Source: a virus. Taken from it: 64,000 nt of DNA. The notes beneath the pieces were generated by a model, which searched no databases, was not told where the DNA came from, and saw only the letters and a list, made by a program, of their open reading frames with translations. Below, in pieces: positions 14,300-34,350 of the stretch. The stretch covers positions 1-64,000 of the IMG/VR virus record IMGVR_UViG_3300008952_000002; one strand, written 5' to 3'. The position numbers and the translations under genes are program-made. Position 1 is the first letter of the stretch, and each line of letters opens with the position of its first letter.

Positions 14300-14912
14300 A
14301 GATAATCTCTGCTATTTCAGCATGTGCCAATTTTCCTGGATGGCCTTTAGGACCGTGATCCATACCATACACCCAATTAACTATTGCTTGGTTTGGCCAC
14401 CCTATAAAATACTTATCGTCAACTAGGTCTTTAAACTCAGAATTACATTGTGGTATTACTTTTTCATTATCAAAAGCATTAAGCATCAAATAAGGTATAC
14501 GTCTAGACTCGAAAAAATCCTGTAATTCTCTTATTTGTACAAAAAAATTATCTAATAGATAATTTTTTTCATTCTCTCCTAACACAATATTCTTTGGTAT
14601 AGTTTCGTTTGGCCCCAATCGAATATACGAAGTCCATTGTATTACAGCACATTCTATTTCAGTTACTGAATTCAATGATTTCCTTTTACCAGTATTAAAA
14701 ACAGATAGTCTGGCCAAATCGTTAAAAAAGTTTTTGGTAGTTTCTACTATACGATTATTTGCGGCACCGGAACGTGCAAAATTAACTACTTGAAGTCTAG
14801 TTATTTCACCCAACTTGGCTGGCCAACATTCAGAAAACGGATGTTCTAACTCATCCCCAAACGTAAAACTATCACCGTTTGTGAATATTATTTTTTCTTG
14901 ACTAATATCCAT
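14265..14912 (-). CDS. SGNH/GDSL-type hydrolase 1
   Basis: 215 residues from ATG 14912; a GTG at 14924 would add four residues. SGNH hydrolases are esterases, or acyl-handling enzymes that act on glycans. Seen: block I NGDSFTFGDE with the nucleophile Ser, block II/III RSGAANNR, and block V near the C terminus (DHGPKGHPGKLAHAEIA), where the Asp and His of the catalytic set should lie. No signal peptide, so it acts in the cytoplasm. It overlaps the Smr gene by 25 nt and the carbamoyltransferase by 35 nt. The same fold occurs again at 16328-17155. Likely role: adding, moving or removing O-acyl groups on a phage-made glycan. Confidence 0.82.
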   Translation of the reverse strand: MDISQEKIIFTNGDSFTFGDELEHPFSECWPAKLGEITRLQVVNFARSGAANNRIVETTKNFFNDLARLSVFNTGKRKSLNSVTEIECAVIQWTSYIRLGPNETIPKNIVLGENEKNYLLDNFFVQIRELQDFFESRRIPYLMLNAFDNEKVIPQCNSEFKDLVDDKYFIGWPNQAIVNWVYGMDHGPKGHPGKLAHAEIAEIIYENIRNKLRVS

Positions 14913-15121
14913 AGGTAAAAGCACCCGCCGTCGTCGCTTTGTTCTATTTTTCTTACTAGTGGGCTACATTCGATCCACAGTGGGAATTCTTGGCAAATAC
15001 TTCCTTTGCCTGTAATTATTTTTATTTTTTTAATTCTTTCTTCATGGCATTCTTTAATAGTAGCAATAATGTCATCATATGCTTCTTGTATGGAATAGCC
15101 GTGGTAGTCGATTACTATCAT
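14888..15121 (-). CDS. Stand-alone Smr domain protein
   Basis: 77 residues, essentially a bare Smr domain as found at the C terminus of MutS2, where it can nick or bind nucleic acid. Seen: the IDYHG (DxHG) motif at residues 4-8 followed by SIQEA, and the IITGKGS loop near residue 36. The C-terminal strand (CFYLWILVKK) fits the fold, but the usual glycine-rich segment after TGKG is altered. It is tied to its neighbours by an ATGA overlap with the radical SAM gene upstream and a 25-nt overlap with the SGNH gene. Why a nucleic-acid type domain sits in this pathway is unclear. Confidence 0.8.
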   Translation of the reverse strand: MIVIDYHGYSIQEAYDDIIATIKECHEERIKKIKIITGKGSICQEFPLWIECSPLVRKIEQSDDGGCFYLWILVKKK

Positions 15122-16188
15122 ATATTAATTAATGAACCCTTTAATGTTATATATCCATTTTTATAATGTTGGTGATTTTTAAGTTTGTTTAACATGTTTA
15201 TGCAATCACTGTACAATGAATTGTTTGGCAAAAAAACTGCTTGCTCTAAAAATAAGTTGGTATTGTAATTGTTAACCCACCAAGAACCCCAATCTTCTAT
15301 ACTACTAATAGTGGCACCAACATTGTACTTTTGACATAGGTTTGCAAAATTTATAACATCCCTATAATTATTTTTTTGTAATACGAATGATAAATGAAAA
15401 TAACGATTGTTCTCTTTCAAAAAGTCTAGACTATCAATAACAGTACTCCAGTTACCTGGGTAACGCACTTTTCTATATACTTCTTCACTTCCTGCATCAA
15501 TACTAACTGCAAAAGATGTTACTTGATCCATAACTTTTGAATTTAAAAGCTTTTTATAATTTATGCGTGTGGCGTTTGACCGAATTGTAAATTTATGATT
15601 TTTTCTAGGAATATAATTATAGATTATATCACCATAAATTCCACTAGCAAATGGTTCTCCGTCGCCTCCCAATTCTATTAAAGACGCGTGTTCAAAGTTT
15701 GACACCAAATCTAAAAAATGCATTGCATAACTTTTTCTTAACTCAAATTCAGGACCCTTATTAATAAACCTAAATTCTGGCCGGCAACTTGGACATTGTA
15801 AATTGCAACTATCATCAATAGCAAATATAAATGAATACCTTTGAGGGAAATCACCGAATCGTATAGGCCCGGTGCATTTTGCTGTATTACAAAACTTAAA
15901 ACTGCTTCCTGCTGAAGTATGTTCTTGTAGTTTTTTAGCAATTGAATTGTTCCATATTTCTTCTATAGTGTTAAAATCTTTTATATTACCAATTAGATAA
16001 GGTAAATGACCATGGCATGAACAGATGAATACGTGGCCAAGTTTGTTAACAAGAATTGAACTGCTTGGCATTATACAATAAACATCTTCTTTAAAAGGAT
16101 GTAATTGGTTATCTCCCAATTTATACTTGTGTCTAATAGAACTTATTGAAGGTGTGCTTCTTATATAACGTAAGTAATCAACTTTCAT
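15118..16188 (-). CDS. Radical SAM protein 1, N-terminal cysteine-cluster domain (group A)
   Basis: 356 residues. Seen: an N-terminal accessory cysteine set (YCIMP, CSCHGH, then FCNTAKC before residue 110) with the IEEIWN helix typical of SPASM/twitch domains, followed by the radical SAM motif CNLQCPSC near residues 128-135. Usually the accessory domain follows the radical SAM barrel; here it precedes it. The GGEP motif reads GGDGEPF, with an extra DG. It closely resembles the protein at 20871-22007 (shared CNLQCPSCR, TIRSNAT, SIDAG and FVLQKNN or FVVQKNN). It should bind one [4Fe-4S] cluster for SAM cleavage and probably one accessory cluster. Substrate unknown. Confidence 0.88.
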   Translation of the reverse strand: MKVDYLRYIRSTPSISSIRHKYKLGDNQLHPFKEDVYCIMPSSSILVNKLGHVFICSCHGHLPYLIGNIKDFNTIEEIWNNSIAKKLQEHTSAGSSFKFCNTAKCTGPIRFGDFPQRYSFIFAIDDSCNLQCPSCRPEFRFINKGPEFELRKSYAMHFLDLVSNFEHASLIELGGDGEPFASGIYGDIIYNYIPRKNHKFTIRSNATRINYKKLLNSKVMDQVTSFAVSIDAGSEEVYRKVRYPGNWSTVIDSLDFLKENNRYFHLSFVLQKNNYRDVINFANLCQKYNVGATISSIEDWGSWWVNNYNTNLFLEQAVFLPNNSLYSDCINMLNKLKNHQHYKNGYITLKGSLINI

Positions 16189-16190
16189 TT

Positions 16191-16223
16191 AAATATTTAT
16201 TAATAAATATTTAAATATTTATT
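16191..16223 (-). promoter_or_regulatory. AT palindrome and late-promoter-like boxes before radical SAM gene 1
   Basis: A perfect 22-bp palindrome (AAATATTTATT followed by its complement, 16191-16212) lies just upstream of the ATG at 16188. Minus-strand AATAAATA boxes, matching the late motif at 7 of 8 positions, occur at 16223-16216 and 16201-16194. The first is well placed (about 28 nt upstream) for an internal late promoter. It overlaps the end of the 44-codon gene. The region is so AT-rich that chance is possible. Confidence 0.35.
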
Positions 16224-16353
16224 TGTATATAAATGGATCTCTCTTTTTAAGTTCTTTTAAACGCTTTCTATATCGTATCTCACGCTTAATTGCGTTAATA
16301 GGACGCATAGCTTGATACTTTGCTTTTTTATAGTATTTTTTTAATGTGTTCAT
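16219..16353 (-). CDS. 44-residue very basic peptide
   Basis: A short frame from ATG 16353 to TAA 16221-16219 fills most of what would otherwise be a gap. It overlaps the end of the SGNH gene by 26 nt, as other genes in this run do. The product has roughly 17 Lys/Arg of 44 residues and several Tyr (starts MNTLKKYYKK, ends DPFIYK); it is helical by composition. No family recognised. It could bind nucleic acid or another polyanion. A link to the radical SAM enzymes as a peptide substrate is conceivable from position alone, without direct support. Confidence 0.5.
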   Translation of the reverse strand: MNTLKKYYKKAKYQAMRPINAIKREIRYRKRLKELKKRDPFIYK

Positions 16354-17155
16354 AAATTATCTCTGCCGCGTCTTCGTGTGCTTTCTCTAAAGGATGCGAA
16401 GTTGCAAATTCATAATTATTTATAAGTGCCCAGTCATTGAATCCCAAATACTTACTTGTTGGCCATGCTCCGGGAAAATGAAACCATACATCTTTATCAA
16501 TTAATGTTCTTAAATTAATAGTATATTGATTAGTATGATCTTCAAATAATTGCGAAGGCGTATGATGTCCTACGTATGTGAATAAGTATTTAATATTTTT
16601 ACTATTCAAAAATTCTTGAAGTAATAATATTTCTTTTAAACTGGTATATACATCGTCTTCATCGCTTACAGTATAATACCATGCTTTTGCTAAGTCTACA
16701 ATGCCTGCTTCTTTATATATATTATATTTTCTTTCTAAAGTGGCTTTAGTACTTTCGTAATTGGGAGCATCAGAACTAACCTTTTTAAACCATTCAGATT
16801 TTACTTCATTGGTTGCGGCATAAGGATCTAACGATAACCACTCTGAATCTACTTTATACATTTGGTCATTCAATGTTCCATTTATTAATTTGAACTCGCG
16901 CCTTGCAATAAATGTATACATGACTTGTACAAAAACATCTTCAGGATCATACTTCTTTAAGAATTCAATAGTATAATATAACACTCGCCGTGCCATAAAT
17001 GCATTGCCTCTTCCACTAGCTGCCGTGTTTATGTGCTTGGCTCCTAGTTTATTAGATACTAAATTACTCCAAGCATATTTACTAGGTCCAATACTATCAT
17101 TTGGTAATTCAGCACCATAAGTAAAACTATCTCCGGATGAGATGCATATTTTCAT
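16328..17155 (-). CDS. SGNH/GDSL-type hydrolase 2
   Basis: 275 residues. Seen: block I SSGDSFTYGAE at the very N terminus with the catalytic Ser, SGRGNAFM as block II/III, and a C-terminal SHPLEKAHEDAAEIIYEHI whose His fits block V. It is longer than the SGNH protein at 14265-14912, with an inserted helical middle (about residues 110-180), but the two end alike (EIIYEHIKK, EIIYENIRN), so they are probably paralogues. Cytoplasmic by lack of signal. Expected chemistry is ester hydrolysis or acyl transfer on a glycan; substrate unknown. Confidence 0.8.
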   Translation of the reverse strand: MKICISSGDSFTYGAELPNDSIGPSKYAWSNLVSNKLGAKHINTAASGRGNAFMARRVLYYTIEFLKKYDPEDVFVQVMYTFIARREFKLINGTLNDQMYKVDSEWLSLDPYAATNEVKSEWFKKVSSDAPNYESTKATLERKYNIYKEAGIVDLAKAWYYTVSDEDDVYTSLKEILLLQEFLNSKNIKYLFTYVGHHTPSQLFEDHTNQYTINLRTLIDKDVWFHFPGAWPTSKYLGFNDWALINNYEFATSHPLEKAHEDAAEIIYEHIKKIL

Positions 17156-17163
17156 ATTCTTAT

Positions 17164-18270
17164 TTAACGTATTTGATCTATTTGTAATTGTTTAAAGTTA
17201 CTATCGTGCCAAAAATAATCGAATGTAGCACTTGCGTCAGATGTTTGTAACTTATAAACATCTAAATAGTCATTCATAATATACCAAGTTAGATAAGGTA
17301 TGTCAGTATTAAAAGACTTTTGTAAGTTAACTTGTCCTACCTGTGGATGCCCCAATGTTAATGTTGGATCATCAGGATCTAATCCGTTTTGCCTTAACCA
17401 ATTTATAAATTCATTAATTCGTTCATTATGATGTGGGAAATCTGACTTCCTTGACCAACTAATATCAAAATCACCTGCGGCTTTTGTTTGTGATCGGCAT
17501 GCAATAGTAATTTCACCCAATGTCATTGTATTGCCACCACTGATATCTAATGCACCACCTTCATCTATAAAAACTTCCCAATGCGTTTTACCAACTGCTT
17601 TATTAACACCTACATAAACACCGCCAAACACTTTGTCTAAGCTACCAATTCCAAACCCTTCGAAGTCTGATTCATCTACTAAATCAAAGCGTGGTGCATT
17701 TAACCAACACATTAATTGTGACTTCTGCATCCACTCAGGCGCCTGTACTAACTTACGATTAGTTAATGCCCATGTTTCAAACTCGTGACATAACAAATTA
17801 AGTTGCCTTATATGATACTTTTCTTCAGGTGTGGCGTTTTTAAAATGCCGAGACATTGACGTTGACGTATCACCTGTATCAATGCCTTGTAATTCTTCAA
17901 ACCATCTATGTAACCAATTAAACTTTTCATGTTTAATGGATAGTCCTGGATGGCCAAACCCTACTTCACCATAATTAATACAATTTTCTAATGTATATGG
18001 CGCTGTTTCTATATTATAGTTTAATGAACTACTGTTAATAAAGTCTATCGTATCGTTGATTTCATCAAGAATCAATTGCCCTGATCGTTTTCCGTTTACA
18101 AAACCCAAAAAGCAATAGTTTTTTTCAAGTATTAAATTGTCGTTAAGTATTCCGTTTAACGCTGTAAGCCATTTGCGACTTAACCCTGTATCATATACGT
18201 CAATATAGACATCCATAGTACTATGATATCTTGTTCTTAACGTCATTACAATTTCATCTAATTTTTTCAT
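17164..18270 (-). CDS. Hypothetical protein, paralogue of the 10998-11924 protein
   Basis: 368 residues, no recognised family. It shares with the 10998 product the HRWFEEL helix, a LNLLCHEFE helix and a following strand-rich region. Further motifs of note are GEVGFGHPGLS (about 96-106), an aromatic FDISWSRK (compare FDFSW in the repeat protein) and a C-terminal TFDYFWHDS. It begins in the last 17 nt of the oxygenase-like gene and ends 8 nt before SGNH 2, so it is translated with the enzymes. It may bind a substrate or act as a scaffold; no catalytic motif is evident. Confidence 0.55.
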   Translation of the reverse strand: MKKLDEIVMTLRTRYHSTMDVYIDVYDTGLSRKWLTALNGILNDNLILEKNYCFLGFVNGKRSGQLILDEINDTIDFINSSSLNYNIETAPYTLENCINYGEVGFGHPGLSIKHEKFNWLHRWFEELQGIDTGDTSTSMSRHFKNATPEEKYHIRQLNLLCHEFETWALTNRKLVQAPEWMQKSQLMCWLNAPRFDLVDESDFEGFGIGSLDKVFGGVYVGVNKAVGKTHWEVFIDEGGALDISGGNTMTLGEITIACRSQTKAAGDFDISWSRKSDFPHHNERINEFINWLRQNGLDPDDPTLTLGHPQVGQVNLQKSFNTDIPYLTWYIMNDYLDVYKLQTSDASATFDYFWHDSNFKQLQIDQIR

Positions 18271-19030
18271 TGATTAGTTTCTCCTTTACTTCTTCAAATG
18301 TTTTACCATATAGGCATACTCTAAGCGTAAGTCTTTCATTTGGTGTTGCTTCTACACGATGTTCTATACCACTATTAATTAACGCTACCTTGTAGGTATC
18401 TACTTTATAATAATTGTCACCTTCTCTAAACTCTGTTGCTCCACGTTTACTAGTTTCGCTATCTAAGTTAATAGCTATAACAATAGGTGTAAAAGTAGTG
18501 TTATTAGACTTTAACAATCTATCCGGAACTGTTATAACATTATCCACATGCCAGTCGATGCTAGTATTTTTTGCTGACCATACGTAATTTACATCATAAT
18601 CTAAAATAAAGTCTTGCAAATTTAAATGTTCAATTAATTGTTTTCCTATTTCTTGCATGTATTTTTTATTATCAGTAAACTCTTTAATACTGTGTTGGTC
18701 CTCAAGAACATTAAAACGAGAGTACAACGGATTATCTGCTTGCCCTACTAATATAACTCCTTCTGTTCCTTTTTTGTCAGTAACTAGTGGGCGAATTTTT
18801 TCCATATCTATAGAATCATAATAATCTTTGTTTTTTACTATTAGATCTAAGACTTTTTTCAGTGCTTTAGATTTATCTTTTTCCTCAACTGAATAATATG
18901 TTTCTCTATATTTTCTAAGTATAGAAAAAACTTCTCTTAACTTAGCAATATCAAACATGTCATATTTGTCGTTAAAATCAATGTGTTGTGAACCAACCCA
19001 TGGTTCAGATTTGTCTAATATCTTATCCAT
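18254..19030 (-). CDS. Probable 2-oxoglutarate/Fe(II)-dependent oxygenase
   Basis: 258 residues. The C-terminal half fits a double-stranded beta-helix oxygenase: an HxD iron motif (DWHVDN, near residues 158-163), a distal His in SGIEHRVEATP (about 222-232), and a following Arg (ERLTLRVCL) suited to binding 2-oxoglutarate. The N-terminal 90 residues are helical and charged. Such enzymes hydroxylate, epimerise or desaturate amino acids, sugars or bases. It is 1 nt from the FMN-type gene and overlaps the next gene by 17 nt. Family assignment rests on the motif trio alone. Confidence 0.65.
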   Translation of the reverse strand: MDKILDKSEPWVGSQHIDFNDKYDMFDIAKLREVFSILRKYRETYYSVEEKDKSKALKKVLDLIVKNKDYYDSIDMEKIRPLVTDKKGTEGVILVGQADNPLYSRFNVLEDQHSIKEFTDNKKYMQEIGKQLIEHLNLQDFILDYDVNYVWSAKNTSIDWHVDNVITVPDRLLKSNNTTFTPIVIAINLDSETSKRGATEFREGDNYYKVDTYKVALINSGIEHRVEATPNERLTLRVCLYGKTFEEVKEKLINEKIR

Positions 19031-19031
19031 T

Positions 19032-19580
19032 TTATATTCCTCCTATTGTTGTAGTATCAAACTTTAGAAATTCTTGTTCATCAATACTGGTGCGTATCCA
19101 AGCTGCCTTAGCAAATCCTCCATTTAACCTAATAGACTCGACATTGAGTCTATACATATTAAAGTCTAAAAAGTCAAAAAATCCTCTTGCTTTCTTATGC
19201 TTTTCTAAAAACTTTGATTTGTGTTCATTCTTGTCTACTAATTCTACTCTGCCTATAAAAGTGGCTCTGGGACTATTCATTCTCATACGTCCATGTAAAC
19301 TACCGTCAATTGTGCCATCTAATAATAAAGATATCTTTTTGTATGTTTGAATATTTTTACTATGGTCTGACAAATCTGATATAAAAATATAAGGAACTTT
19401 TCTAATAAAGCATGACTGAACCAAACTTACATATGGATGAGTTTGTAATGCATCATGACCATTTCCTAATGAAGTGGCCATATACATAAAACCACTATCA
19501 GCAGTTATTAAATTTTCAACAATATGTATTGCGTCTACTGTAGTAAAATTTGTTTCTAAACTTTTATCGTCTTCCACCAT
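19032..19580 (-). CDS. HugZ-like FMN split-barrel (PNPOx family) protein
   Basis: 182 residues. The family includes pyridoxamine-phosphate oxidases and haem-degrading HugZ proteins. Seen: MATSLGNGHD, then IFISDLSDHSKNIQTYKKISLLLDG, which closely follows the LISDLAxHTxNL...SLL pattern of HugZ-like proteins; SPRATFIGRVELV; and the C-terminal DFNMYRLNVESIRLNGGFAKAAWI, matching the family's substrate or FMN-dimer region. It starts inside the end of radical SAM gene 2 (25-nt overlap). Possible roles are flavin-dependent reduction or oxidation of a pathway intermediate, supply of electrons, or haem/iron handling. Flavin binding is an inference from the family. Confidence 0.85.
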   Translation of the reverse strand: MVEDDKSLETNFTTVDAIHIVENLITADSGFMYMATSLGNGHDALQTHPYVSLVQSCFIRKVPYIFISDLSDHSKNIQTYKKISLLLDGTIDGSLHGRMRMNSPRATFIGRVELVDKNEHKSKFLEKHKKARGFFDFLDFNMYRLNVESIRLNGGFAKAAWIRTSIDEQEFLKFDTTTIGGI

Positions 19581-20869
19581 TCTAAAATCTCGCCATTCAA
19601 AATATTATCTATAGTATAACTGGTTTTACGCAGATTGTCAATTTTTGCCATGCGTTGTTTGCCTTTCAAGATGCCTTGTTCGTACTCGTCGGACCACTCT
19701 TCTTGGAAAGTTGGTCTTTCTTTTAGATTTTTTAATACATCTATTAGCGGTTGTTGTTTCCATGTTGCCTCCTTACATTCTTCTAATAATTGATCTACTT
19801 TGTCGTTTAATAAGTTACGTGGTAAACACAATGGACTCATTATAATGTCCGGTGTAAAAGCAAAAGTAACTTTTGCTAATAACATCGTATCTAACTCCTT
19901 ACTTAATTCAAACATATTTTTTACTTCATATAATCCAGGTAAGGTTAAAGTAAAGTCTAAACGCATTTGGTTTGGATGCTTTTGTGCCGCCATACCTTGT
20001 TTATAATAGTGTAAAAACTTACTCCAATCTAAACCATCGCGTATGTATTCTCCTATAGCACCTGTACCATCAATTGATGCACATATTTGCCAGTCGCGTA
20101 TATTGTCTAGTATATTTCTAAACAAATGCGTTCCTTTATACTCTATACGAGATAAGTTTGTATTATATCTTGCGTATACTTTACTTCCGTGTCCTTGTTC
20201 TATAATTTGTTTCATATACTTCCAATGTTCTTCAAACATTAGAGGTTCGCCACCTACCCAGTATATCTCTTCTACTTTGCCATTTGCTACTGCATCAGCA
20301 AATTCTTTTTCTACTACTTGCGATTGAACCTCGCTTATTTGTTTTCTTACAGTTGGGTCCATCCAATTATTTTTTGGATTACTGTAATCAATCATGTTGT
20401 TGTTACGTTGTTCTGTTTCCCAACTACTACTTAACATATCGCCACACATACGACATTTAAAATTACATAAATTACTAAAGCGATAATCCCAACTTACTGG
20501 CTTCATTGTAGTGTAGCCTGTTTCGTCTGTACTTGCTATCACTTCGTCGTATTTGTGTTTAAATAAATTCCAAAAATAATCTCTATATACGTCAGTGTTT
20601 AGTAATTTTTTATTACATACTTGGCAAGCATCTATTTCTTCTCCCGCCATGTGTGCTCTACGTACACTTTTCATATATTCACTATTCCAATGTTCTTCTA
20701 ATGATATTGGATTATATTCACCTGTGCCGGCTTCAGTGTCTATATATTGCTTAAAGCTTTGTGCAGGCTCGCGTGAAGCGCAACACAATCTACGTTCTGT
20801 TTGTGGACTTAGGTAAGTATGCACCCACGGTGCCATACACATTGTTTCTGGTTTTTGTATTTTTTTCAT
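19556..20869 (-). CDS. Radical SAM protein 2, N-terminal cysteine-cluster domain (group B)
   Basis: 437 residues. N-terminal accessory domain: CMAPWVHTYLS, a CC pair (LCCAS), a LEEHWNSEYM helix and a CQVC pair near residue 80. The radical SAM motif CNFKCRMC follows at about residues 134-141, then a short GDMLSSSW stretch and the GGEP motif (WVGGEPLMF). The C-terminal part lacks a second cysteine domain, unlike usual SPASM proteins. The C-terminal EVFPEL-type ending of its neighbours is missing. The gene lies 1 nt after radical SAM gene 3. Expected to make the 5'-deoxyadenosyl radical and oxidise, epimerise or cross-link an unknown substrate. Confidence 0.9.
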   Translation of the reverse strand: MKKIQKPETMCMAPWVHTYLSPQTERRLCCASREPAQSFKQYIDTEAGTGEYNPISLEEHWNSEYMKSVRRAHMAGEEIDACQVCNKKLLNTDVYRDYFWNLFKHKYDEVIASTDETGYTTMKPVSWDYRFSNLCNFKCRMCGDMLSSSWETEQRNNNMIDYSNPKNNWMDPTVRKQISEVQSQVVEKEFADAVANGKVEEIYWVGGEPLMFEEHWKYMKQIIEQGHGSKVYARYNTNLSRIEYKGTHLFRNILDNIRDWQICASIDGTGAIGEYIRDGLDWSKFLHYYKQGMAAQKHPNQMRLDFTLTLPGLYEVKNMFELSKELDTMLLAKVTFAFTPDIIMSPLCLPRNLLNDKVDQLLEECKEATWKQQPLIDVLKNLKERPTFQEEWSDEYEQGILKGKQRMAKIDNLRKTSYTIDNILNGEILEWWKTIKV

Positions 20870-20870
20870 T

Positions 20871-22007
20871 TTATTTTTTGGGTATTAATAATGAATCTTT
20901 ACTAATGCTTATATTTCTGTTGAAAGTGATCGGAGGTACTTCCGGAGCGTGAAACCACGGATGTGTTATGATATTATTATAGATTTTAACCCATTCATCA
21001 TATAATTCGTGGTCAGGCATGAATACTTGTTGTCTTTTAAAATTTGTGTAGCGGTCTGCTTCCGTCAAGCCGTTATTCTGATCTACCACTGGCCATGTTA
21101 TGCCCCACGCCGTGCCCCAATCGTGTACAGGGTTAAGAAATCCTTTAACTTCAAACTTTTCGCAAAGATTTATAAAATTTATAATATCTTTAAAATTATT
21201 TTTTTGCACAACAAAAGTCATATGAAATACATAATTATTATCTTTCAAAAATTGTAAATTATCTAGAACAGTTTCCCATTTGCCAGGAGGTCTAACAATG
21301 TTATATACGTCCTTAGTGCCTGCATCAATGCTTATTGAAAATTCTTGTATATTATTTTTTAACATAGTAGATGTTTCAAACTTGGATTGATCTATTAATG
21401 TTGCATTTGATCTAATTGTAAAACGATGTTTTGGATTTGGTTTATAATTATATATAATTTCACTATATATTTTACTAGCAAAAGGTTCACCGCCGGCGAA
21501 TTCTATAAGTACTGATCCTTTATATTTGTCCAAAAGTTCTAAGAATTTTTTTACATAACTTTTTTTCTTTTCAAACTGTTTTCCAGATTTATAATACATC
21601 AGTTCATTTCTGCAACTAGGGCACTGTAAATTGCAACTATCATCCGTTGTTATATTAATTGTAAAATCATGAAATGGATCCTCCTCCTCAAAAGGGCCAT
21701 GACAATGTTTTAGATCACAAAATTTAAATGTTGATCCTGCTTTTGTGTTTTCTTGTAGTTTTTTAGCAACTGGGTTGTTCCATATATCATGCAATCTATA
21801 AAAATCAAAAATATGGCCAACAGGATAAGGTAAGAATCCTTCACAACTACATATAAAAATATATCCATCTTTATCCATCGTCATGTTGGTTTCAGGAAGA
21901 ATACATGTAAAATTTTTAGCAGATAAGTCGACTTTATTTCTATACTTATTTTTTAAGGAGAAATTACCGCCGGTTTTTCGAACAAGGGTTAAATATTTTG
22001 TATCCAT
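20871..22007 (-). CDS. Radical SAM protein 3, N-terminal cysteine-cluster domain (group A)
   Basis: 378 residues. Same plan as radical SAM protein 1: TCILPETNMT, CSCEGFLPYPVGHI, a DIWNNPVAKKLQ helix, then FCDLKHCHGP, followed by CNLQCPSC at about residues 125-132 and an intact GGEP (FAGGEPFAS). Shared TIRSNAT, SIDAGTKDVY and FVVQKNN elements make the two clear paralogues, though separated by six genes. It overlaps radical SAM gene 4 by 19 nt. Substrate unknown. Confidence 0.9.
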   Translation of the reverse strand: MDTKYLTLVRKTGGNFSLKNKYRNKVDLSAKNFTCILPETNMTMDKDGYIFICSCEGFLPYPVGHIFDFYRLHDIWNNPVAKKLQENTKAGSTFKFCDLKHCHGPFEEEDPFHDFTINITTDDSCNLQCPSCRNELMYYKSGKQFEKKKSYVKKFLELLDKYKGSVLIEFAGGEPFASKIYSEIIYNYKPNPKHRFTIRSNATLIDQSKFETSTMLKNNIQEFSISIDAGTKDVYNIVRPPGKWETVLDNLQFLKDNNYVFHMTFVVQKNNFKDIINFINLCEKFEVKGFLNPVHDWGTAWGITWPVVDQNNGLTEADRYTNFKRQQVFMPDHELYDEWVKIYNNIITHPWFHAPEVPPITFNRNISISKDSLLIPKK

Positions 22008-23335
22008 TTTTTATAGTCATAATTTATGAATTCTGCTAACACAGAATCAACATCATTTAAAGTTTTGCTTCTTACACTATCTACTTTACAGATAATGGTA
22101 TGTAACATGGTGTCTAGATATTCTTCACCATCTTTTTCCTTTCTAAGATCTTCACTATACATATAAGAAATTAAAGACTCTACTTCTTTTACGTTATCAA
22201 AGTTTTTATCTATTAACTCTTGCCAATTATATGCTCTTAACTTATTTGCAATAATATCTTTTACTTCAGGTGAATGCATTTGTATATTAAAATGTTTGGG
22301 ATAATGCATTAAATTTAGATACCAAGAATCTAAGTCTTTAATTTCTTTAACCCAGTCTGCAACATCTGTTATGTTATGGAAATTAAACAAGTTAAATGTA
22401 GTGCATATTTCTGTTTCCATGTTACTGGTTTTGTTCTCAGAAATATACAGTATATTACTGTTTACTTCATCCCATTTTGCACCATAACGTTGGTATTCAA
22501 ATTTATCGCCAATATCATCTACACTAAAAGATATTCTACAATGTTTAAAATGTGGTAAAATATCATGAAATTCATCTTTTGGCAACTGAGTGCCATTTGT
22601 ATTATAATGAATATTTATATTTTTTGCGTGTCCGGATTCAATTAATGTTTCTAATACTGTAAAGTGTTCTTTAATCATCCAGGGTTCACCGCCTGTAAAC
22701 TCTAAATGCTTTACGTTAGGCAATATTTCCTTTAGGTCTTCCCAAAATTGCGGACTTTTGCGTGGCCATTCGCCTTGCTTTAGATAGTAATATGCTGATG
22801 ATTTTTTTGCATCTTCTTTTTTAAGTCCATGGAACTTTATATCTAATTCTATTTCTTCTTGCGCCCATTTGCTACTACTCCATGATCCGCATATTCTACA
22901 TTTTAAATTACAAATAGTTCCTAACTTTAAGTCTAAATATGCAATATCATTTTCTGTAATATCTTTACTAAAAATATCACGCATTTCAGGCAAGTGATGT
23001 GTAAAGTAGTGTGCCCAATTTATACGTTTACTTTCCAATCCAGCGTCTTCCTCATCCCAACACTTTTTGCAAATCTCAGGCTTTTTGCCGTCTAAGAAGT
23101 CTTGTCGTAACTTTTGCATATCAGGACTATTAAACGCATTTGTAATATTGTCGCCATTGTTTAAATTATACGGCTCATTTGTTCCTTCTTTACGCACAGG
23201 CCCTTCTGTCATACAACAAGGTTTAAGCCATCCTTTAGCATCTGCTTCCATATGCATAAAGGGCAAGTAGCATAGTGTAGGTGTTTCCTTAAAAGAGTCT
23301 ACTTTATGTATAACAGTTTTTAGTTTTTCATTCAT
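21989..23335 (-). CDS. Radical SAM protein 4, N-terminal cysteine-cluster domain (group B)
   Basis: 448 residues. N-terminal accessory cysteines: LCYLPFMHMEAD, a KPCCM pair and CKKCWDEED near residue 85. Radical SAM motif CNLKCRIC at about residues 142-149 followed by GSWSSSKW, and GGEP in EFTGGEPWM. Later elements HYNTNGTQ and SFSVDD fit the barrel. It is the most diverged member of group B and lacks the ETFPEL ending. It overlaps the upstream radical SAM gene by 4 nt. It keeps the canonical CxxxCxxC and GGEP, so it is likely active. Confidence 0.9.
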   Translation of the reverse strand: MNEKLKTVIHKVDSFKETPTLCYLPFMHMEADAKGWLKPCCMTEGPVRKEGTNEPYNLNNGDNITNAFNSPDMQKLRQDFLDGKKPEICKKCWDEEDAGLESKRINWAHYFTHHLPEMRDIFSKDITENDIAYLDLKLGTICNLKCRICGSWSSSKWAQEEIELDIKFHGLKKEDAKKSSAYYYLKQGEWPRKSPQFWEDLKEILPNVKHLEFTGGEPWMIKEHFTVLETLIESGHAKNINIHYNTNGTQLPKDEFHDILPHFKHCRISFSVDDIGDKFEYQRYGAKWDEVNSNILYISENKTSNMETEICTTFNLFNFHNITDVADWVKEIKDLDSWYLNLMHYPKHFNIQMHSPEVKDIIANKLRAYNWQELIDKNFDNVKEVESLISYMYSEDLRKEKDGEEYLDTMLHTIICKVDSVRSKTLNDVDSVLAEFINYDYKKWIQNI

Positions 23336-24585
23336 AGTTCACTCAACTCTGGAAATGTTTCTTTAAAGTTTTCATTTCTTACATCGTCTACTTGGTTGGT
23401 TAGTTTTAAAAAGTCTTGTAGCAATTGTTCGTTGGCAGGTTGATTAATAAAGTTAATAGCACTTTCATAACCGTTTGTTGCTCGTTGCAAGCCGTCCAAC
23501 GGTCTAATATATTCAATATGCTCTTTGTATTTAGCGATTAGTTTTTCTTTAAGATTATTTGGTAGATTGTCTATGCGATAGTGTGGTGGATTCATTAATA
23601 TGTTTATGTTAAAGTCTTGTGCTTGTATTAAACCTCTATCCATCCAATCACGATGAAAGTCTGGCATATGGAAACTGTTCATTATGCTTAACGTGCAACT
23701 AATATAAAAATCCACGTTAGGACAAATTTCTAACATTTCAAATCTATTTTGTTCAGTCTCTTTCCAAATAGTTCCTTTACGTATATACTCGGCACGTTTG
23801 CCCATGCCATCCAAACTTGCGCCGACACTAACACTATCAAAATGTTTCCACATTTCAAAAATACTTTTTCCTTTAAACTTCATTTCGCTCATATTAGTGT
23901 TGTAAATAAGTTTTACATCAAAACGCTCTTGTCGTATAAGTTCTTCTAAAATTTTCCAATGCTCAACCATTGTAAGTGGTTCACCACCCGCAAAATAAAA
24001 TTGCTCAATGTATGGCATATGTCGCTTTGCTTCTTCATAAAAGTCTTTGTCATCACCACATCGTATTACTTTGGGATGATTTGGCGTTTGTCCTAACTTA
24101 ACGGCATCACTATACCAATTAGAACTAAACAGTGGTCCGCAAGTGCGACAACGGAAGTTACACATATTACTAAAGCGAACGTCCCAATACACAATTTCAA
24201 AATTTGGATCAACGTTATGTGATTTTGTTTTATTAATATGATGTCCAAAATGTTTATTTGCACTTACTCTACCACTCATGAATCCGTTTTTATCTTGTTC
24301 ATAGCATTTACTACATTCTTTAAGGTGCAATCCTTTAAACATTCTATCACGTATATTTTGCATTTTCTCGCCGTGCCAAATCTCTTCCAAAGTATTATCT
24401 TTTAAATCACCAACTGGCATATTCATATCTGACATACAGCAAAGATGCACAGAGGAATCAGGATAAGCATGTATATGAGTCCAGGGATAGATACAAAACG
24501 TAGGATTTTCTAAGAGATTGAATTGTTCTTGTGGTGATAGATCCTCAAGTTGAACTTTCAACGGCTTTTTTTCATTATAATCCAT
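23332..24585 (-). CDS. Radical SAM protein 5, N-terminal cysteine-cluster domain (group B)
   Basis: 417 residues. N-terminal accessory domain: FCIYPWTHIHAY, a CC pair (LCCMS), DNTLEEIWHGEKM, then CSKCYE near residue 90. Radical SAM motif CNFRCRTC at about residues 142-149 followed by GPLFSSNW, and AGGEPLT. A conserved YNTN then ASLDGMGKRAEYIRKGT stretch is shared with protein 6. The protein ends with NFKETFPEL. It is the closest paralogue of the next upstream gene (24575-25888), suggesting tandem duplication; the two overlap by 11 nt. Confidence 0.92.
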   Translation of the reverse strand: MDYNEKKPLKVQLEDLSPQEQFNLLENPTFCIYPWTHIHAYPDSSVHLCCMSDMNMPVGDLKDNTLEEIWHGEKMQNIRDRMFKGLHLKECSKCYEQDKNGFMSGRVSANKHFGHHINKTKSHNVDPNFEIVYWDVRFSNMCNFRCRTCGPLFSSNWYSDAVKLGQTPNHPKVIRCGDDKDFYEEAKRHMPYIEQFYFAGGEPLTMVEHWKILEELIRQERFDVKLIYNTNMSEMKFKGKSIFEMWKHFDSVSVGASLDGMGKRAEYIRKGTIWKETEQNRFEMLEICPNVDFYISCTLSIMNSFHMPDFHRDWMDRGLIQAQDFNINILMNPPHYRIDNLPNNLKEKLIAKYKEHIEYIRPLDGLQRATNGYESAINFINQPANEQLLQDFLKLTNQVDDVRNENFKETFPELSEL

Positions 24586-25888
24586 CCATTAACTCCTTTA
24601 ATTCTGGAAATACTTCTACCATATCTTCATTTCTAAATCTATCAAACTTATGTATTTCCTCTCTAAACTTTGGTAATAAGTCTGTTCTATCTTCGTTCTC
24701 TAAAAAGTGTATGGCGCCTTCAAATCCATTTGTAGCACGTTTGATATCATCTGCTTCGGCAATGTTTACTAAATGCTCTTTATATAATTTTATTACTTCT
24801 TCTCTCATATGTTGTGGCAAGATAGTTAGTCTATAATAGTCTGGTCCTTGTAATATATTAATATGAAAGTCATACGCCTTAATAAGGCCACGATGCATCC
24901 AATCATTATGGAAATCTACAATATGATATGCATTTAATACCTGCAGTGTAGCACTTGGAAAAAAGTCTACTGTAGGACATATATCCAACATTTCTTCTCT
25001 GTTGCGAACTATTTTATCCCAATTAGTTCCTTTGCGTATATACTCTGCTCTTGCACCTATCGCGTCTAAACTTGCACCTACTGATACTGTTTCAAACTCT
25101 TTCCATATTTCAAATACGTTTCTGCTTTTATACTTCGTTTCACTAAAGTTTGTGTTATACATTAACTCTACATTTGTTTTGCCGCGTTTTAATAGTTCAT
25201 CTATTAAGCGCCAGTGTTCTTCCATCATTAGCGGTTCTCCGCCAGCAAAGTATATTTTATGTAAGTTATCTATATATGGTTCTACCATTTCCCAATTTAA
25301 TTCTTTATTGCCACGTGTATATTCAATCTTTAAGTCTTGCCCATATATGCGATTAAACTCTTTAACCCAATTACTACTAAACTGCGGGCCACACATTCTA
25401 CAACTAAAATTACATAAATTATTAAACCGCATATCCCAATATATAATATTCGGATCAGCACTGCCATCTGTTTGTGTGCTATCTATATAATCTACAGCAT
25501 ACGCAAAGTTTCTATTGCTTTCATTACGCAAACTAAAAAAGCCATTGTCCTCTTTCTCATAACATTTTACGCATTGCTCGCTAGGTTTATCTTGTAGCAT
25601 ATTAAGACGCATTTGTCTCATGCTTTCACCGTTCCATACTTCTTCTAAAGTATTGTCGCGTAAATTTCCTACTGTTTCATTCATCTCTGCCATACAGCAA
25701 GGATATGCTTCGCCTTGTGACCAACCGTGTAAATGTATCCACGGCAGCATACAGAAGTGTTTACTATGTGCTAACAGTTCATACTGTAATTGCGTAAAAT
25801 CACTCTTTTGTAATCGTTGTTTGTTTCTATCAAGTAACAACGTCTTACTATCAAACGGATTATCTTCGTCTAAAAATCCTTTATCCAT
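24575..25888 (-). CDS. Radical SAM protein 6, N-terminal cysteine-cluster domain (group B)
   Basis: 437 residues. N-terminal accessory domain: FCMLPWIHLHGW, CCMAEM, DNTLEEVWNGESM, CVKCYEKED. Radical SAM motif CNFSCRMC at about residues 159-166 with GPQFSSNW after it, AGGEPLM, YNTN and SLDAIGARAEYIRKGT. The C-terminal segment NEDMVEVFPEL matches the ending of protein 5. The pair share most motifs in the same order, so they arose by duplication and presumably act on related substrates. Overlap with radical SAM gene 7 upstream is 8 nt. Confidence 0.92.
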   Translation of the reverse strand: MDKGFLDEDNPFDSKTLLLDRNKQRLQKSDFTQLQYELLAHSKHFCMLPWIHLHGWSQGEAYPCCMAEMNETVGNLRDNTLEEVWNGESMRQMRLNMLQDKPSEQCVKCYEKEDNGFFSLRNESNRNFAYAVDYIDSTQTDGSADPNIIYWDMRFNNLCNFSCRMCGPQFSSNWVKEFNRIYGQDLKIEYTRGNKELNWEMVEPYIDNLHKIYFAGGEPLMMEEHWRLIDELLKRGKTNVELMYNTNFSETKYKSRNVFEIWKEFETVSVGASLDAIGARAEYIRKGTNWDKIVRNREEMLDICPTVDFFPSATLQVLNAYHIVDFHNDWMHRGLIKAYDFHINILQGPDYYRLTILPQHMREEVIKLYKEHLVNIAEADDIKRATNGFEGAIHFLENEDRTDLLPKFREEIHKFDRFRNEDMVEVFPELKELMDGL

Positions 25889-27248
25889 TTAAACTATTAT
25901 ACCAATCTGCTAGGCGTGGAAACGTTTCTACAAAATTCTTTCTTCTACGCTCATCATATTGTTTGTAGAAATGATAAAAATCATTATGCAATGCTGGTTT
26001 TTCAAATGTATCGCTGTGCGGTGTTTCTACCACATCTAAATAATCTATTAAACGCTCTACGTGATTGCGTTCCATTTCATGCATCAACTTATTTTTCTTT
26101 GCTTTTCTATACCAACCTTGTATATCCCCTCTAAACTCCGCAAGTATTTCTTTCGGCAATACCAACGGAGATTGGAAACTTGGAAAACGTAAAATATTTA
26201 ATGTAAATGTTGGAAAGCTCGATCCGTACTCTTCTTTAAATTCCAATTGTTGCTGTAAAAATTGTGGAAGAGAGTTTAAACACAATGCGTTAATTGTACA
26301 CATCATATGAAAACCTTCAAGGTTTCCTTCGGTACAGGCTCTGTGGCAATTACTCACCCATCTATTCCACTCTAATCCATCACGTATATATTCTGCTTGT
26401 ACGCCCATCGCTTCACAACTTGTATATAAATGCAAGTGCGGAACATGCTGTGCATTTTCAATAAATCTATCTAATAGTTCGTCTTTGGCACCCAGATTAC
26501 TGTTAATAGCAAAACGCATATTTGTTTGCCTGTCACTATTTTTAAACCATTCAAATAGTTTCCATATGTCGTCAGACATCAATGGTTCGCCACCAGTAAT
26601 ACGAAGTTCATCAAGTGTTTCGTGTAATTCCTCATCCCACCACTTCCAGAACGCTTCAACATAAGGATTAGTTTCATCCTTTTTGTATAATTGAGCAGAA
26701 GGGTGGGTATGAGTAAAATGATTACGACCGTCGCTAATTAGATTTTCGTACGGTCCATCTTTTTTGATATCCTTTACCCAGGAACTACTAAAAGCAGGAT
26801 TACAGTAAGAACAGCTAAAGTTGCAAGTCCGATCAAAGGCGGTCTCAAGAGTGCGAAGTGCAAAATTTTCTGTCGGTAATTTGTCTTTGACATAATTAAC
26901 ATCCTCCTCGTCATAAATGACTGATTTATGGACACGATCCGAAATAGCATCGGGCCCAATATCTTCAATCTTCCAACAATACTCACAGCCAGCAGGACGT
27001 TGTCCCATTAGCATATTGTGTCGATCTTTCTTTTTTTGGAATGTGTTATGGATAGCGGCTGGATTGGATTGAAGTTCTGTTACATCTATTTCGTGGGCAG
27101 GCGGGTGATGACAACTTGTTGTCATTCCACTTCCTAACCATATTGTAGCGTTCCTCCATTTTGCCATACAAAAAGATGGACTTATAGTATTATTTAGCCA
27201 TTTTTTGACCTCTAAATCGGTCTCTCTACCCGGTTTTCTTAGTGTCAT
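25881..27248 (-). CDS. Radical SAM protein 7, N-terminal cysteine-cluster domain (group C)
   Basis: 455 residues. The N-terminal accessory domain has a distinct four-cysteine pattern: FCMAKW, SCHHPPAHEI and GCEYCWKIED. Radical SAM motif CNFSCSYC at about residues 142-149 then NPAFSSSW, and ITGGEPLM. It contains CEAMGVQAEYIRDGLEW, like the ASLDG-AEYIRKG segment of group B. It ends with NFVETFPRL. The closest relative is protein 9 (28265-29707), with the same PP-H-I and HNT-KK segments; a canonical radical SAM gene separates them. The start is exactly adjacent to gene 8. Confidence 0.92.
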   Translation of the reverse strand: MTLRKPGRETDLEVKKWLNNTISPSFCMAKWRNATIWLGSGMTTSCHHPPAHEIDVTELQSNPAAIHNTFQKKKDRHNMLMGQRPAGCEYCWKIEDIGPDAISDRVHKSVIYDEEDVNYVKDKLPTENFALRTLETAFDRTCNFSCSYCNPAFSSSWVKDIKKDGPYENLISDGRNHFTHTHPSAQLYKKDETNPYVEAFWKWWDEELHETLDELRITGGEPLMSDDIWKLFEWFKNSDRQTNMRFAINSNLGAKDELLDRFIENAQHVPHLHLYTSCEAMGVQAEYIRDGLEWNRWVSNCHRACTEGNLEGFHMMCTINALCLNSLPQFLQQQLEFKEEYGSSFPTFTLNILRFPSFQSPLVLPKEILAEFRGDIQGWYRKAKKNKLMHEMERNHVERLIDYLDVVETPHSDTFEKPALHNDFYHFYKQYDERRRKNFVETFPRLADWYNSLNG

Positions 27249-28268
27249 TTAAAACCTCATTACTGTTTCTTTATTAACCTCAGTTGATTTACATTTTAAA
27301 TTACATATATCCAACTTAGGTATGTTTTCTATAAATTCTTTCCAACAAGGATTGTTTAATACTGATTCTAACCCACGTTGTTTTATGTTCTTGTCATGCG
27401 TCAACCAGTTTTTATATGCCTCATCATTATATCTATTAATAATCCAGCAACACGGATAAAAATATCCTCTGCTATCAATGAATAACCCTTTTGTACCTAT
27501 AAAGCAATAAGGTATTAAATCACCCACCAAAGATTGCTTTTTATATAACTGTACTGCTGTCTTAAAACTATCATCGTATATTTTCCTTTTTGTAAGACGT
27601 ATGGTATTACTTTCGTATCTACCAGATTTACTAATGTAATCTTCTATAGGATCTAAAGAATTATCATAGTGTTGATAATAAAAATTAAACTTATTACTTT
27701 TAGTTTGTCTTATAGCATCAAAATTTAGTTCCTTTGCAAGTGCTATCATATGATCTTCATGTTTATAATTAAAAGAAAAATATATCATATCCCATACTAA
27801 TCTAACAGGTTTTTTTCTTAATGCATTTACGCCTTCCATTATACTATTCCAATCACAATTTATTCTATATTTCTCATTACTTTCTTGATCATAACCATCC
27901 AAACTAAAATGCACCTGATCGTATTTGTTTAATACTTTAGCCAATCTTTCCCACCATACTACTGGTTTGTAACTACCATTGGTAACAATACTTAACTCTA
28001 TTTTAGGATTAATAGTTTTAAAATATTCACAAATCTCTATAAATTCTCTATTGTAAATTGGATCACCGTCGTAGCCACACAATGTAATTCTTTTTATTTG
28101 TGTTAAGATATCCTTAGTAAAGTTTTTTGTAAAAAAGCCTAATGTTAAATTATCTCTTTCTAATGTTTGTGGTTTTTCTGTTCTAGAACATCTAGGACAT
28201 TTTAACGTACATAAACTACTAAGTTCAATATGCCAATGCCACAGTGGCCAGTTAAATTCATTTTTCAC
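27249..28268 (-). CDS. Radical SAM protein 8, canonical order with C-terminal SPASM-like domain
   Basis: 339 residues, start codon GTG at 28268 in a GTGA overlap with the upstream gene. The only member with the usual order: radical SAM motif CTLKCPRC at residues 20-27, a GYDGDP version of GGEP (about residue 65), a HFSLDG strand, then C-terminal cysteines typical of SPASM domains (FYPCCW near 272, CW near 310, and ICNLKC near 323). Such proteins include peptide-maturing and sugar-modifying enzymes. The lack of the N-terminal domain sets it apart from its eight neighbours; it may do a different step. Confidence 0.9.
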   Translation of the reverse strand: MKNEFNWPLWHWHIELSSLCTLKCPRCSRTEKPQTLERDNLTLGFFTKNFTKDILTQIKRITLCGYDGDPIYNREFIEICEYFKTINPKIELSIVTNGSYKPVVWWERLAKVLNKYDQVHFSLDGYDQESNEKYRINCDWNSIMEGVNALRKKPVRLVWDMIYFSFNYKHEDHMIALAKELNFDAIRQTKSNKFNFYYQHYDNSLDPIEDYISKSGRYESNTIRLTKRKIYDDSFKTAVQLYKKQSLVGDLIPYCFIGTKGLFIDSRGYFYPCCWIINRYNDEAYKNWLTHDKNIKQRGLESVLNNPCWKEFIENIPKLDICNLKCKSTEVNKETVMRF

Positions 28269-29707
28269 GATTGCGCCAACCTCTTACATTCTTCCCACCA
28301 ATCTATCATTTCGGGGAAAGTTTCGAGGAAGTTTGTTCCTCGGCGTTTATCGTGTTCGTTAAAAAACCTATAAAAATCTGCTTTACAGTCTTTTACATAG
28401 TGCTCGTCTAAATTACTACCTTCTTGCCACCACGCCAAGTCACGTTGCATACGTTGAACTTCATAATCTTTAAATCCCTTAAAGCGTGTTTTTTCGTCTT
28501 CCATATTATCCAACATCCAACAAATGTTGTCGTCATGTATCATTTGGTATGCTTCGGGCAATAATTGTATGCTTTGCCAACGTGGTTGTCTCAACAGTGG
28601 AGTATCAAACCACACTCGTTGGTAAGTCTCGCTATATATTTGTCTTAAACCATGTATAGCGGCTAACAGTTTATCCATGCCTGTTACACTTAAATTATTA
28701 TATGTAATAATAAACGTAACGCTGTTTCTATATGGAACTTCTGTTAAAAATCTATTAACGTTGTCCCACATTCTATTAAAATCTAATCCATTGCGTATAT
28801 ATTCCGCTTGCTCCATCCACGTGTCAACGCTAACATATTGCATAAAGTGTTCTACTTTTTCATCTAAGCAAATAGGTTTAATTGCTTCAATATATTTGTT
28901 AAACAGTTTATCCTCTACTGAGAAGTTACTCGTTACGTTAAGATGTAAATCGCTTTTTGGATGCTCATTAATGTAATCAAATACTTTGTAAGTATTTTTA
29001 TCCATCATTGGTTCGCCGCCAGTCATTCTAAAGTGTTTTAAATCTTTATATAAGTCGGGCCACCATTTCCAAAATGCTTCTACATGTGGATTATAATGAC
29101 TATGTGGAATACATGCTCTGTCGCCAGTAAAATGTTCAGGTGCGTTATGTGGTGTTTTTGTGGGCCATGCACCATACTGCTTCATTTCCTTTTCCCACGA
29201 TGTGCTAAACTGTGGTGAACAGTAACTACACTTTAGATTGCAATTATGATTAAAGTTAACTTCAACATAGCGTGGGTTTTTGTCTGCATTCCACGGAGCA
29301 TTAAGTATAGTTTCAAAGTCCATGTGTGCCCATGGCTCGCCACTTCTATAATGCCTGTCGCTCATATGCCCAGTATCTTCAATGTTCCAACAATACTGGC
29401 ATTCTTTTGGACGTTCTCCTTCTAGCATTAACTTACGCATTTGTTTCTTGTGTTGCGTATTATGTAAAGCAGATGGATTTTGTTTAACTTCTTCTGCGTC
29501 TATTTTGTGTAGTGGTGGGTGGTAGCAACTGTTGTTTAATCCAGTTGGTAAATGTAAACTAACTTGATTCCATTTAGCAAGGCAAAAGGACGGTGATACA
29601 GAGTCTAATTGCTCTGTAATATTTTCTGCGCTTTTGTAAAAGTCCGATTTAAATTTCCCATCTTCAACTTCTACTTTATCGCCCTTATTGTCCTTGTATA
29701 GTTCCAT
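28265..29707 (-). CDS. Radical SAM protein 9, N-terminal cysteine-cluster domain (group C)
   Basis: 480 residues, the longest of the set. N-terminal accessory cysteines: FCLAKW, SCYHPPLHKI and ECQYCWNIED. Radical SAM motif CNLKCSYC at about residues 156-163 followed by SPQFSTSW, and MTGGEPMM. It contains VDTWMEQAEYIRNGLDF and ends with NFLETFPEM and a Trp-rich tail. The paralogue is protein 7. It is the first radical SAM gene transcribed, 1 nt overlapping the glycosyltransferase-like gene upstream. Confidence 0.92.
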   Translation of the reverse strand: MELYKDNKGDKVEVEDGKFKSDFYKSAENITEQLDSVSPSFCLAKWNQVSLHLPTGLNNSCYHPPLHKIDAEEVKQNPSALHNTQHKKQMRKLMLEGERPKECQYCWNIEDTGHMSDRHYRSGEPWAHMDFETILNAPWNADKNPRYVEVNFNHNCNLKCSYCSPQFSTSWEKEMKQYGAWPTKTPHNAPEHFTGDRACIPHSHYNPHVEAFWKWWPDLYKDLKHFRMTGGEPMMDKNTYKVFDYINEHPKSDLHLNVTSNFSVEDKLFNKYIEAIKPICLDEKVEHFMQYVSVDTWMEQAEYIRNGLDFNRMWDNVNRFLTEVPYRNSVTFIITYNNLSVTGMDKLLAAIHGLRQIYSETYQRVWFDTPLLRQPRWQSIQLLPEAYQMIHDDNICWMLDNMEDEKTRFKGFKDYEVQRMQRDLAWWQEGSNLDEHYVKDCKADFYRFFNEHDKRRGTNFLETFPEMIDWWEECKRLAQS

Positions 29708-33281: not shown

Positions 33282-33288
33282 ATACATT

Positions 33289-34342: not shown

Positions 34343-34350
34343 TATTTATA
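34343..34350 (-). promoter_or_regulatory. T4-type late promoter TATAAATA
   Basis: Exact TATAAATA on the minus strand, about 100 nt upstream of the ATG at 34243 and 11 nt beyond the stop of the preceding gene. This matches the gp55-dependent late promoter of T4-like phages. The leader that follows contains the stem-loop at 34299-34323. Confidence 0.75.

Follow-up and report, generated by a model that had tools for sequence, protein, structure and literature searches.

We analysed a 64,000-nucleotide stretch of viral DNA (the window; positions 1 to 64,000 of the 201,690-base IMG/VR virus record IMGVR_UViG_3300008952_000002) that carries nine radical S-adenosylmethionine (SAM) genes, labelled R1 (15118) to R9 (28265), beside genes for glycosyltransferase (GT)-like and fibre-type proteins. 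An earlier note, made from the sequence alone, had claimed nine such genes with eight in an unbroken run, and Pfam and NF033640 searches bore this out. The nine minus-strand open reading frames (ORFs) were confirmed at the coordinates in Table 1 with one CxxxCxxC motif apiece, and eight follow one another head-to-tail over 19556–29707 with intergenic gaps of −19 to +1 nt. PF04055 matched eight of the nine proteins (E 2.5e-14 to 2.5e-6; two of these about 1 bit below the gathering score). The ninth, R9 (28265–29707), had a weak PF04055 match (21 bits against a cut-off of 29.5) and was recognised through NF033640, the family of radical SAM proteins with an N-terminal twitch domain (327.8 bits against a cut-off of 170). 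Six of the nine passed this cut-off, at 289.8–406.5 bits over nearly the full model, whereas R1 (44.7 bits) and R3 (65.1 bits) stayed under it and R8 gave no match at the threshold used. By PF04055, NF033640 and the CxxxCxxC motif, all nine have a radical SAM domain; they comprise six NF033640 members, two relatives with an N-terminal SPASM domain (R1 and R3) and one classical C-terminal SPASM enzyme (R8). The whole record encodes 16 radical SAM genes (14 PF04055 matches, R9 and 167831–168898), seven of them outside the nine, and three further NF033640 members lie elsewhere in it.

The auxiliary cluster domain precedes the radical SAM domain in eight of the nine enzymes, and R8 has the classical order. 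The N-terminal region of the profile matched the BtrN twitch (E 4.5e-7) and contains four conserved cysteines, as in a twitch/SPASM auxiliary domain. It resembles the C-terminal twitch of BtrN, but the domain order is reversed, the window enzymes having the twitch first. The core matched viperin, MoaA and BlsE, whose substrates are nucleotides or sugars. C31, C50, C91, C94, CxxxCxxC, GGEP and a few other residues were invariant over 13 diverse sequences, and all tested positions among the predicted ligand cysteines of R9, R7, R5, R4 and R2 were kept in 55 of 55 non-identical phages, including seven of seven listed ligand cysteines in R9. Each of these five N-twitch core enzymes is predicted from its sequence to bind two [4Fe-4S] clusters, one cleaving SAM and the other auxiliary. 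Of the motif groups drawn in the earlier note, A (R1 and R3; sisters, support 1.00) and C (R7 and R9; in sister clades, 0.99) were recovered in the phylogeny, and R8, with its C-terminal SPASM, was the sole canonical enzyme. Group B (R2, R4, R5 and R6) was not one clade: R5 and R6 are close paralogues, and R2 and R4 are separate lineages. That note had mentioned neither the N-terminal auxiliary domain, nor the seven further radical SAM genes of the record, nor the finding that only five of the nine form a conserved core.

A broad radical SAM alignment was without conserved stretches, and a narrower R5/R6 alignment was used to collect relatives; R6 and the R5/R6 profile returned at least 595 confirmed relatives from IMG/VR, not all necessarily in the operon. 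Comparison of gene neighbourhoods in IMG/VR revealed an ordered operon of large uncultured T4-like phages recurring in 94 loci, usually as fib34–u33–GT32–GT31–GT29–R9–R7–R5–R4–R2–u17–NodU–L7, with R2 before R4 in one subgroup. R7 was present in 92 of the 94 loci, R4 in 91, R9 in 90, R2 in 86 and R5 in 83, counts in which loci are cut at contig ends and R6-type matches take the place of R5 in some. An independent collection by u17 alone yielded at least 556 IMG/VR relatives, with R2 (63), R7 (63), R5 (61), R4 (60) and R9 (55) upstream among the 64 loci that extended far enough in that direction and NodU (57) and the L7 family (58) downstream among 60. Neighbouring core genes overlapped or nearly did so in almost all cases, and GT29 abutted or overlapped R9 in 47 of 47 adjacent cases. 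R1, R3, R6 and R8 are lineage extras, and the nine-gene set is a local elaboration of a five-gene core.

Mean identity over the 55 non-identical loci was 0.66 for R9 and R2, 0.64 for R7, 0.56 for R5 and 0.52 for R4, and the neighbours fib34 and u33 reached 0.48 and 0.41. A FastTree phylogeny that included cellular relatives recovered every core enzyme as monophyletic (0.94–1.00) and R7 and R9 as sisters, and it placed R5 among cellular sequences. Since each core enzyme forms its own clade, the tree is most simply read as showing five old functions that have been maintained separately, and recent amplification of a single gene was ruled out. Random pick-up of host genes was ruled out by the recurrent gene order. 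No described function was found for the NF033640 family itself, at least five distinct ancient members of which stand in one ordered operon in the window. Together, the gene order, the overlaps, the invariant cluster cysteines and the co-conserved glycosyltransferases strongly support the phage-borne multi-step radical pathway proposed in the earlier note.

The core operon was found in none of 50,697 GenBank phage records: R5, R4 and R9 queries gave only 20–31% relatives there, and u17, GT29 and GT32 queries gave none. A set of nine is less unusual than the earlier note had supposed, as multi-radical-SAM phages have been reported and hundreds of IMG/VR stretches encode core-protein relatives. 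As no function is known for any of these, they are not the many unrelated sets of known function that the earlier note had named as a refutation. The virulent Campylobacter phages CP220 and CPt10 have 11–12 radical SAM genes, including an interchangeable five-gene cluster (PMC2853527). The CP220 cluster contains nucleotide-sugar transferases and an amidinotransferase and lies near the baseplate lysozyme gene. It is nevertheless a different module: no core profile matched the region, only the R8 type was found by tblastn (~30%), and u17, NodU and L7 are lacking. Two amidinotransferase-like ORFs of the window's record, recognised by eye and without a Pfam hit, recall this module and lie elsewhere (L038, 12581–13708; L040, 14574–15611).

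The marine T4-like 183-kb genome TARA_ERS488813_N000010 has 12 radical SAM genes, an A-type Fe-S carrier and a glutaredoxin, and the available part of its report presents them as Fe-S metabolism and does not discuss operon order, twitch position or fibre linkage (PMC5332604). The window's record likewise encodes a glutaredoxin and an A-type-carrier-like protein elsewhere; the carrier-like ORF adjoins another GT29/L7-domain protein (L039, 14296–15490). In pelagimyophages, radical SAM cassettes occur with glycosyltransferases in a tail-fibre island, the host recognition cluster; in the accessible text they are mentioned in a two-genome comparison, and a conserved multi-enzyme operon is not described (PMC7029224). 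Multi-radical-SAM phages without assigned function are thus already known, as far as these sources were available (PMC2853527, PMC5332604, PMC7029224). New is a conserved core of five enzymes that has intact catalytic motifs, constant partners and a position linked to the fibre, and that none of the cultured phages searched possesses. Phage radical SAM clusters have been reported since 2010 without a function, and one of them now appears as a strongly conserved, fibre-linked operon.

Table 1. Features of the radical SAM locus and its surroundings, in the direction of transcription (window coordinates)
Feature	Position	Strand	Evidence
s36: conserved structural-region protein, synteny anchor to cultured jumbo phages	36057..36722	-	phrog_11259, PHROG 248 bits; 55-59% identity to Atu_ph07 gp177 and Phosso homologue
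Two T4-type late promoter motifs TATAAATA	35994-36001 and 36005-36012	-	
fib34: fibre/tail-type structural protein, peptidase_G2-like chaperone region	34362..35903	-	PHROGs tail/head matches; Pfam Peptidase_G2 weak
Late promoter motif TATAAATA, last intergenic copy ahead of the radical SAM operon	34343..34350	-	
u33: Ser/Thr-rich fibre-like protein, presumed first gene of the transcript, candidate substrate	33332..34243	-	32.7% Ser/Thr
u32: small conserved ORF	32931..33287	-	
GT32: glycosyltransferase-like, DxD-type motif, homologous to GT31	32089..32931	-	Profile match to GT31; GT call by motif only
GT31: glycosyltransferase-like	31242..32105	-	Profile match with GT32; GT-like by eye only
u30: small protein, conserved position; tail-fibre-assembly chaperone likeness by eye only	30866..31255	-	No family match
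GT29: GT-A-fold glycosyltransferase-like core protein	29707..30633	-	AlphaFold2 pLDDT 91
R9: core N-twitch radical SAM	28265..29707	-	NF033640 327.8 bits
R8: accessory classical radical SAM, C-terminal SPASM	27249..28268	-	R8-type match in 13/94 loci
R7: core N-twitch radical SAM, R9 sister	25881..27248	-	NF033640 309.5 bits
R6: lineage duplicate of R5	24575..25888	-	NF033640 406.5 bits; clusters with R5
R5: core N-twitch radical SAM	23332..24585	-	NF033640 399.2 bits
R4: core N-twitch radical SAM	21989..23335	-	NF033640 352.2 bits
R3: accessory N-terminal-SPASM radical SAM, R1 sister	20871..22007	-	Pfam, phylogeny
R2: core N-twitch radical SAM	19556..20869	-	NF033640 289.8 bits
Accessory CREG/PNPOx-fold protein, weakly HutZ/HugZ-like	19032..19580	-	PF13883 E 2.2e-11; NCBIfam HutZ E 2e-7, under cut-off
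Accessory possible 2-oxoglutarate (2OG)-Fe(II) oxygenase	18254..19030	-	HxD...H pattern only; no Pfam match
u17: core protein, directly after R2 in most phages	17164..18270	-	AlphaFold2 pLDDT 83.5; no significant PDB fold match
Accessory DUF6071/SGNH-like protein	16328..17155	-	Pfam 27.4 bits
R1: accessory N-terminal-SPASM radical SAM	15118..16188	-	PF04055 + PF13186
Accessory DUF6071-like protein	14265..14924	-	Weak
NodU/TobZ-family O-carbamoyltransferase, co-conserved	12632..14299	-	Pfam E 1.3e-52; PF02543 + PF16861
Accessory sulfotransferase-like protein	12055..12627	-	Weak
L7: FDFSWHPD-module repeats and C-terminal GT29-homologous domain	7275..10949	-	

Among the partner proteins, u33 has the highest Ser/Thr content of 211 ORFs (32.7%; family mean 30%); in each of the 41 loci where this could be tested, it is found upstream of GT32, at most four genes away. 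It gave no Pfam, PHROG or NCBIfam match, and its conserved C-terminal motif, PxTTxLxNxWGTPT, is more likely structural. The glycosyltransferases, oxygenase and flavin-type protein that the earlier note placed beside the radical SAM genes held up unevenly. Foldseek comparison assigned the AlphaFold2 model of GT29 to the GT-A fold (E 1.6e-4 to SunS; D65-G66-D67-N68 invariant), with the SunS/ThuS S-glycosyltransferases, hyaluronan synthase, RmlT and the PBCV-1 capsid GT as its best PDB folds. The GT31 and GT32 profiles matched one another, and these two proteins are GT-like by eye only. The 19032–19580 protein is CREG/PNPOx-like, and the presumed oxygenase at 18254 has an HxD...H pattern only and no family match. 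PDB sequence searches returned nothing for u17 and only a chance match for GT29, and Pfam searches on 27 u17 members gave nothing consistent. A link between u17 and gp166 of Agrobacterium phage Atu_ph07 (Foldseek E 4e-7, the entry being matched to gp166 by phage and length only) is only suggestive because profile comparison found nothing (probability 1.4%).

NodU has both carbamoyltransferase domains (PF02543 and PF16861) of an O-carbamoyltransferase, and its PDB relatives decarbamoylnovobiocin carbamoyltransferase, GdmN and TobZ transfer carbamoyl groups to small molecules, including some sugars. A TobZ-like NodU, a BtrN-like twitch and a BlsE/viperin-like core are natural-product-type enzymes, and one Paenibacillus homologue stands among carrier-protein genes, as would suit an operon making a soluble aminoglycoside-like or nucleotide-like compound. 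We consider this secondary-metabolite reading very improbable, since we recognised no gene for export or resistance within the operon and the linkage to a fibre-like protein is constant. The C-terminal domain of L7 is homologous to GT29; the rest of the window protein consists of many tandem FDFSWHPD modules of ~75 residues, which are few in other phages. About 3 kb past L7 lies ThyX. DNA bases can be substrates of phage radical SAM, glycosyltransferase and carbamoyltransferase enzymes, and both facts count for DNA hypermodification. ThyX accompanies the operon irregularly (8 of 60 loci), however, and the late, fibre-linked position also speaks against this explanation, for which we see hardly any chance.

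The late promoter motif TATAAATA occurs 32 times in the record, 21 times between genes, compared with an intergenic share of 4% of the DNA. The six copies in the window all share the strand of the operon; of the four that lie between genes, two precede fib34, one precedes u33 and one precedes 10998–11927. The radical SAM operon has no copy of its own in any intergenic gap, and the nearest upstream one precedes u33; the operon is therefore most probably transcribed late together with u33.

We tentatively favour, at slightly short of an even chance, the reading that the locus is a late cassette glycosylating and radically modifying a virion adhesin or fibre. In this scheme GT32, GT31, GT29 and perhaps L7, as GT-A proteins, would build a sugar on u33, the product of the same presumed transcript, or on a fibre encoded nearby, and R9, R7, R5, R4 and R2 would then oxidise, epimerise, deoxygenate or cross-link the glycan or its carrier polypeptide. 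NodU may add an O-carbamoyl group, u17 may be an accessory factor, and R1, R3, R6, R8, CREG, SGNH and the sulfotransferase may vary the product from phage to phage. We favour this because the order recurs, core genes overlap, ligand cysteines are invariant, identities exceed that of fib34 and the enzymes form separate old clades; because the last intergenic late motif precedes u33, the most Ser/Thr-rich protein and one constantly linked to GT32; and because of the GT-A fold of GT29, the BtrN-like twitch, the viperin/MoaA/BlsE-like core and the carbamoyltransferase relatives of NodU. Parallels in other phages also count: K566 and CP220 mix radical SAM with GT-like genes, and Atu_ph07 and Phosso have the CHxS locus described below. 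Sequence evidence supports the operon, its gene order, the intact cluster motifs, the late-promoter position in this phage and the GT-A fold of GT29.

Several points weigh against the fibre-modification reading. We infer its substrate, step order and chemistry. u33 has no tail like that of the substrate candidate of the cultured phages, and the correlation of u33 and GT distances (0.71–0.83) is explicable by shared phylogeny and linkage. TM-scores of the GT29 PDB matches are low, so membership in the SunS/ThuS, hyaluronan synthase or RmlT families is not claimed, and GT31 and GT32 are assigned by motif and eye, without fold support. In relatives, TATAAATA is not generally conserved (7 intergenic of 25 copies in 88 loci), and the late-promoter evidence is thus valid for this phage only. 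In the available text, the pelagimyophage authors interpret glycosyltransferases at such loci as modifying host lipopolysaccharide (PMC7029224). By extension, the O-antigen or capsule of the infected cell could be changed late, blocking superinfection or aiding release. The nearby glycosyltransferases, NodU, an aminotransferase and a nucleotide-sugar epimerase agree with this, as does the occurrence of GT29/L7-like genes beside N-twitch and further radical SAM genes on Bdellovibrionota contigs (L076, L077, L079, L080, L082 and L084). We regard such host-surface remodelling as unlikely, although a serious alternative: the late-promoter position behind fibre genes and the constant u33 linkage better suit virion maturation, and cellular N-twitch neighbourhoods, tallied by Pfam, gave a mixed and uninformative picture with few glycan genes.

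Capsid proteins of jumbo phages, PA5oct, Phosso and GAP32 among them, are 62–67% identical to that of the virus. Atu_ph07 and Sinorhizobium phage Phosso have a syntenic locus behind homologues of s36 (55–59%) and fib34 (36–39%). The genes in the syntenic place encode other radical SAM/SPASM enzymes, a cupin and a protein whose end reads CHSSCHASCHNSRSRR or similar; the radical SAM subfamilies differ from those of the window, and GT29 and NodU have no match. These enzymes resemble the peptide maturases DynA, PapB and HxsB. The cupin, radical SAM/SPASM and tail-protein arrangement was seen in Atu_ph07 (L253, 16909–27106), Phosso (L254, 14866–25667) and loci L256, L257, L258 and L259–L331. The CHxS tail has the C-terminal consensus CH[SAT]SCH[ST]SCH[GS]SR[GS]RR in jumbo phages of several lineages, the module also occurring in Burkholderia and Pseudomonas jumbo phages. 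The tail protein gave no NCBIfam match, and the module has the look of CXXX-repeat or HxsA-type modification, here of a phage protein of structural type. When DNA was scanned for the tail pattern alone, 40 complete-tail loci emerged, 39 with such a radical SAM gene nearby; the fortieth is a 4-kb fragment. By analogy, this suggests that radical SAM genes near phage structural genes may act on virion proteins.

The CHxS loci, with their maturase-like enzymes beside a CHxSCHxSCHxSRxRR tail and the result of the tail scan, also favour purely peptide chemistry, in which the radical SAM enzymes would act on fibre- or tail-protein side chains, by cross-linking or epimerisation, and the glycosyltransferases would belong to a separate process. 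We think this rather improbable, because the window enzymes are of another radical SAM subfamily, their best solved-structure matches are small-molecule enzymes, and GT29 invariably abuts or overlaps R9 where the two are adjacent. A Cys/His-rich tail was looked for in the operon and not found, as would mark a precursor with conserved core or tail of the ribosomally synthesized and post-translationally modified peptide type. Returning to fibre modification, a more specific version is possible but doubtful: an undescribed form of virion maturation in which a five-enzyme pathway, shared by a large clade of uncultured phages, equips the receptor-binding fibre with a radical-modified glycan or cross-link, the unrelated CHxS-tail module being its analogue in the corresponding place in cultured jumbo phages. 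Neither the core operon nor the CHxS-tail module turned up in our literature search. Should the fibre be the substrate, phages would have radical chemistry besides glycosylation for building or varying their adhesins, and the five enzymes would offer sugar or peptide chemistry that is new.

The cultured relatives Atu_ph07, Phosso and Vibrio phage K566 offer testable systems. In K566 (L251, 11971–18713), four N-twitch-type radical SAM genes are interleaved with glycosyltransferase-like genes (by eye), and this cluster adjoins a Ser/Thr-rich fibre-like protein, making it a tractable parallel. The window also encodes a 4936-residue virion protein (36740–51550); besides a YHYH domain, it has FG-GAP-like and T7-tail-like stretches. 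Among cellular relatives, bacterial contig L083 (6662–16444) has six N-twitch radical SAM genes between housekeeping genes, two of them R9-like (38–42%), and Elusimicrobia contig L048 has six consecutive N-twitch radical SAM genes, several with N-terminal TPR-like repeats by eye.

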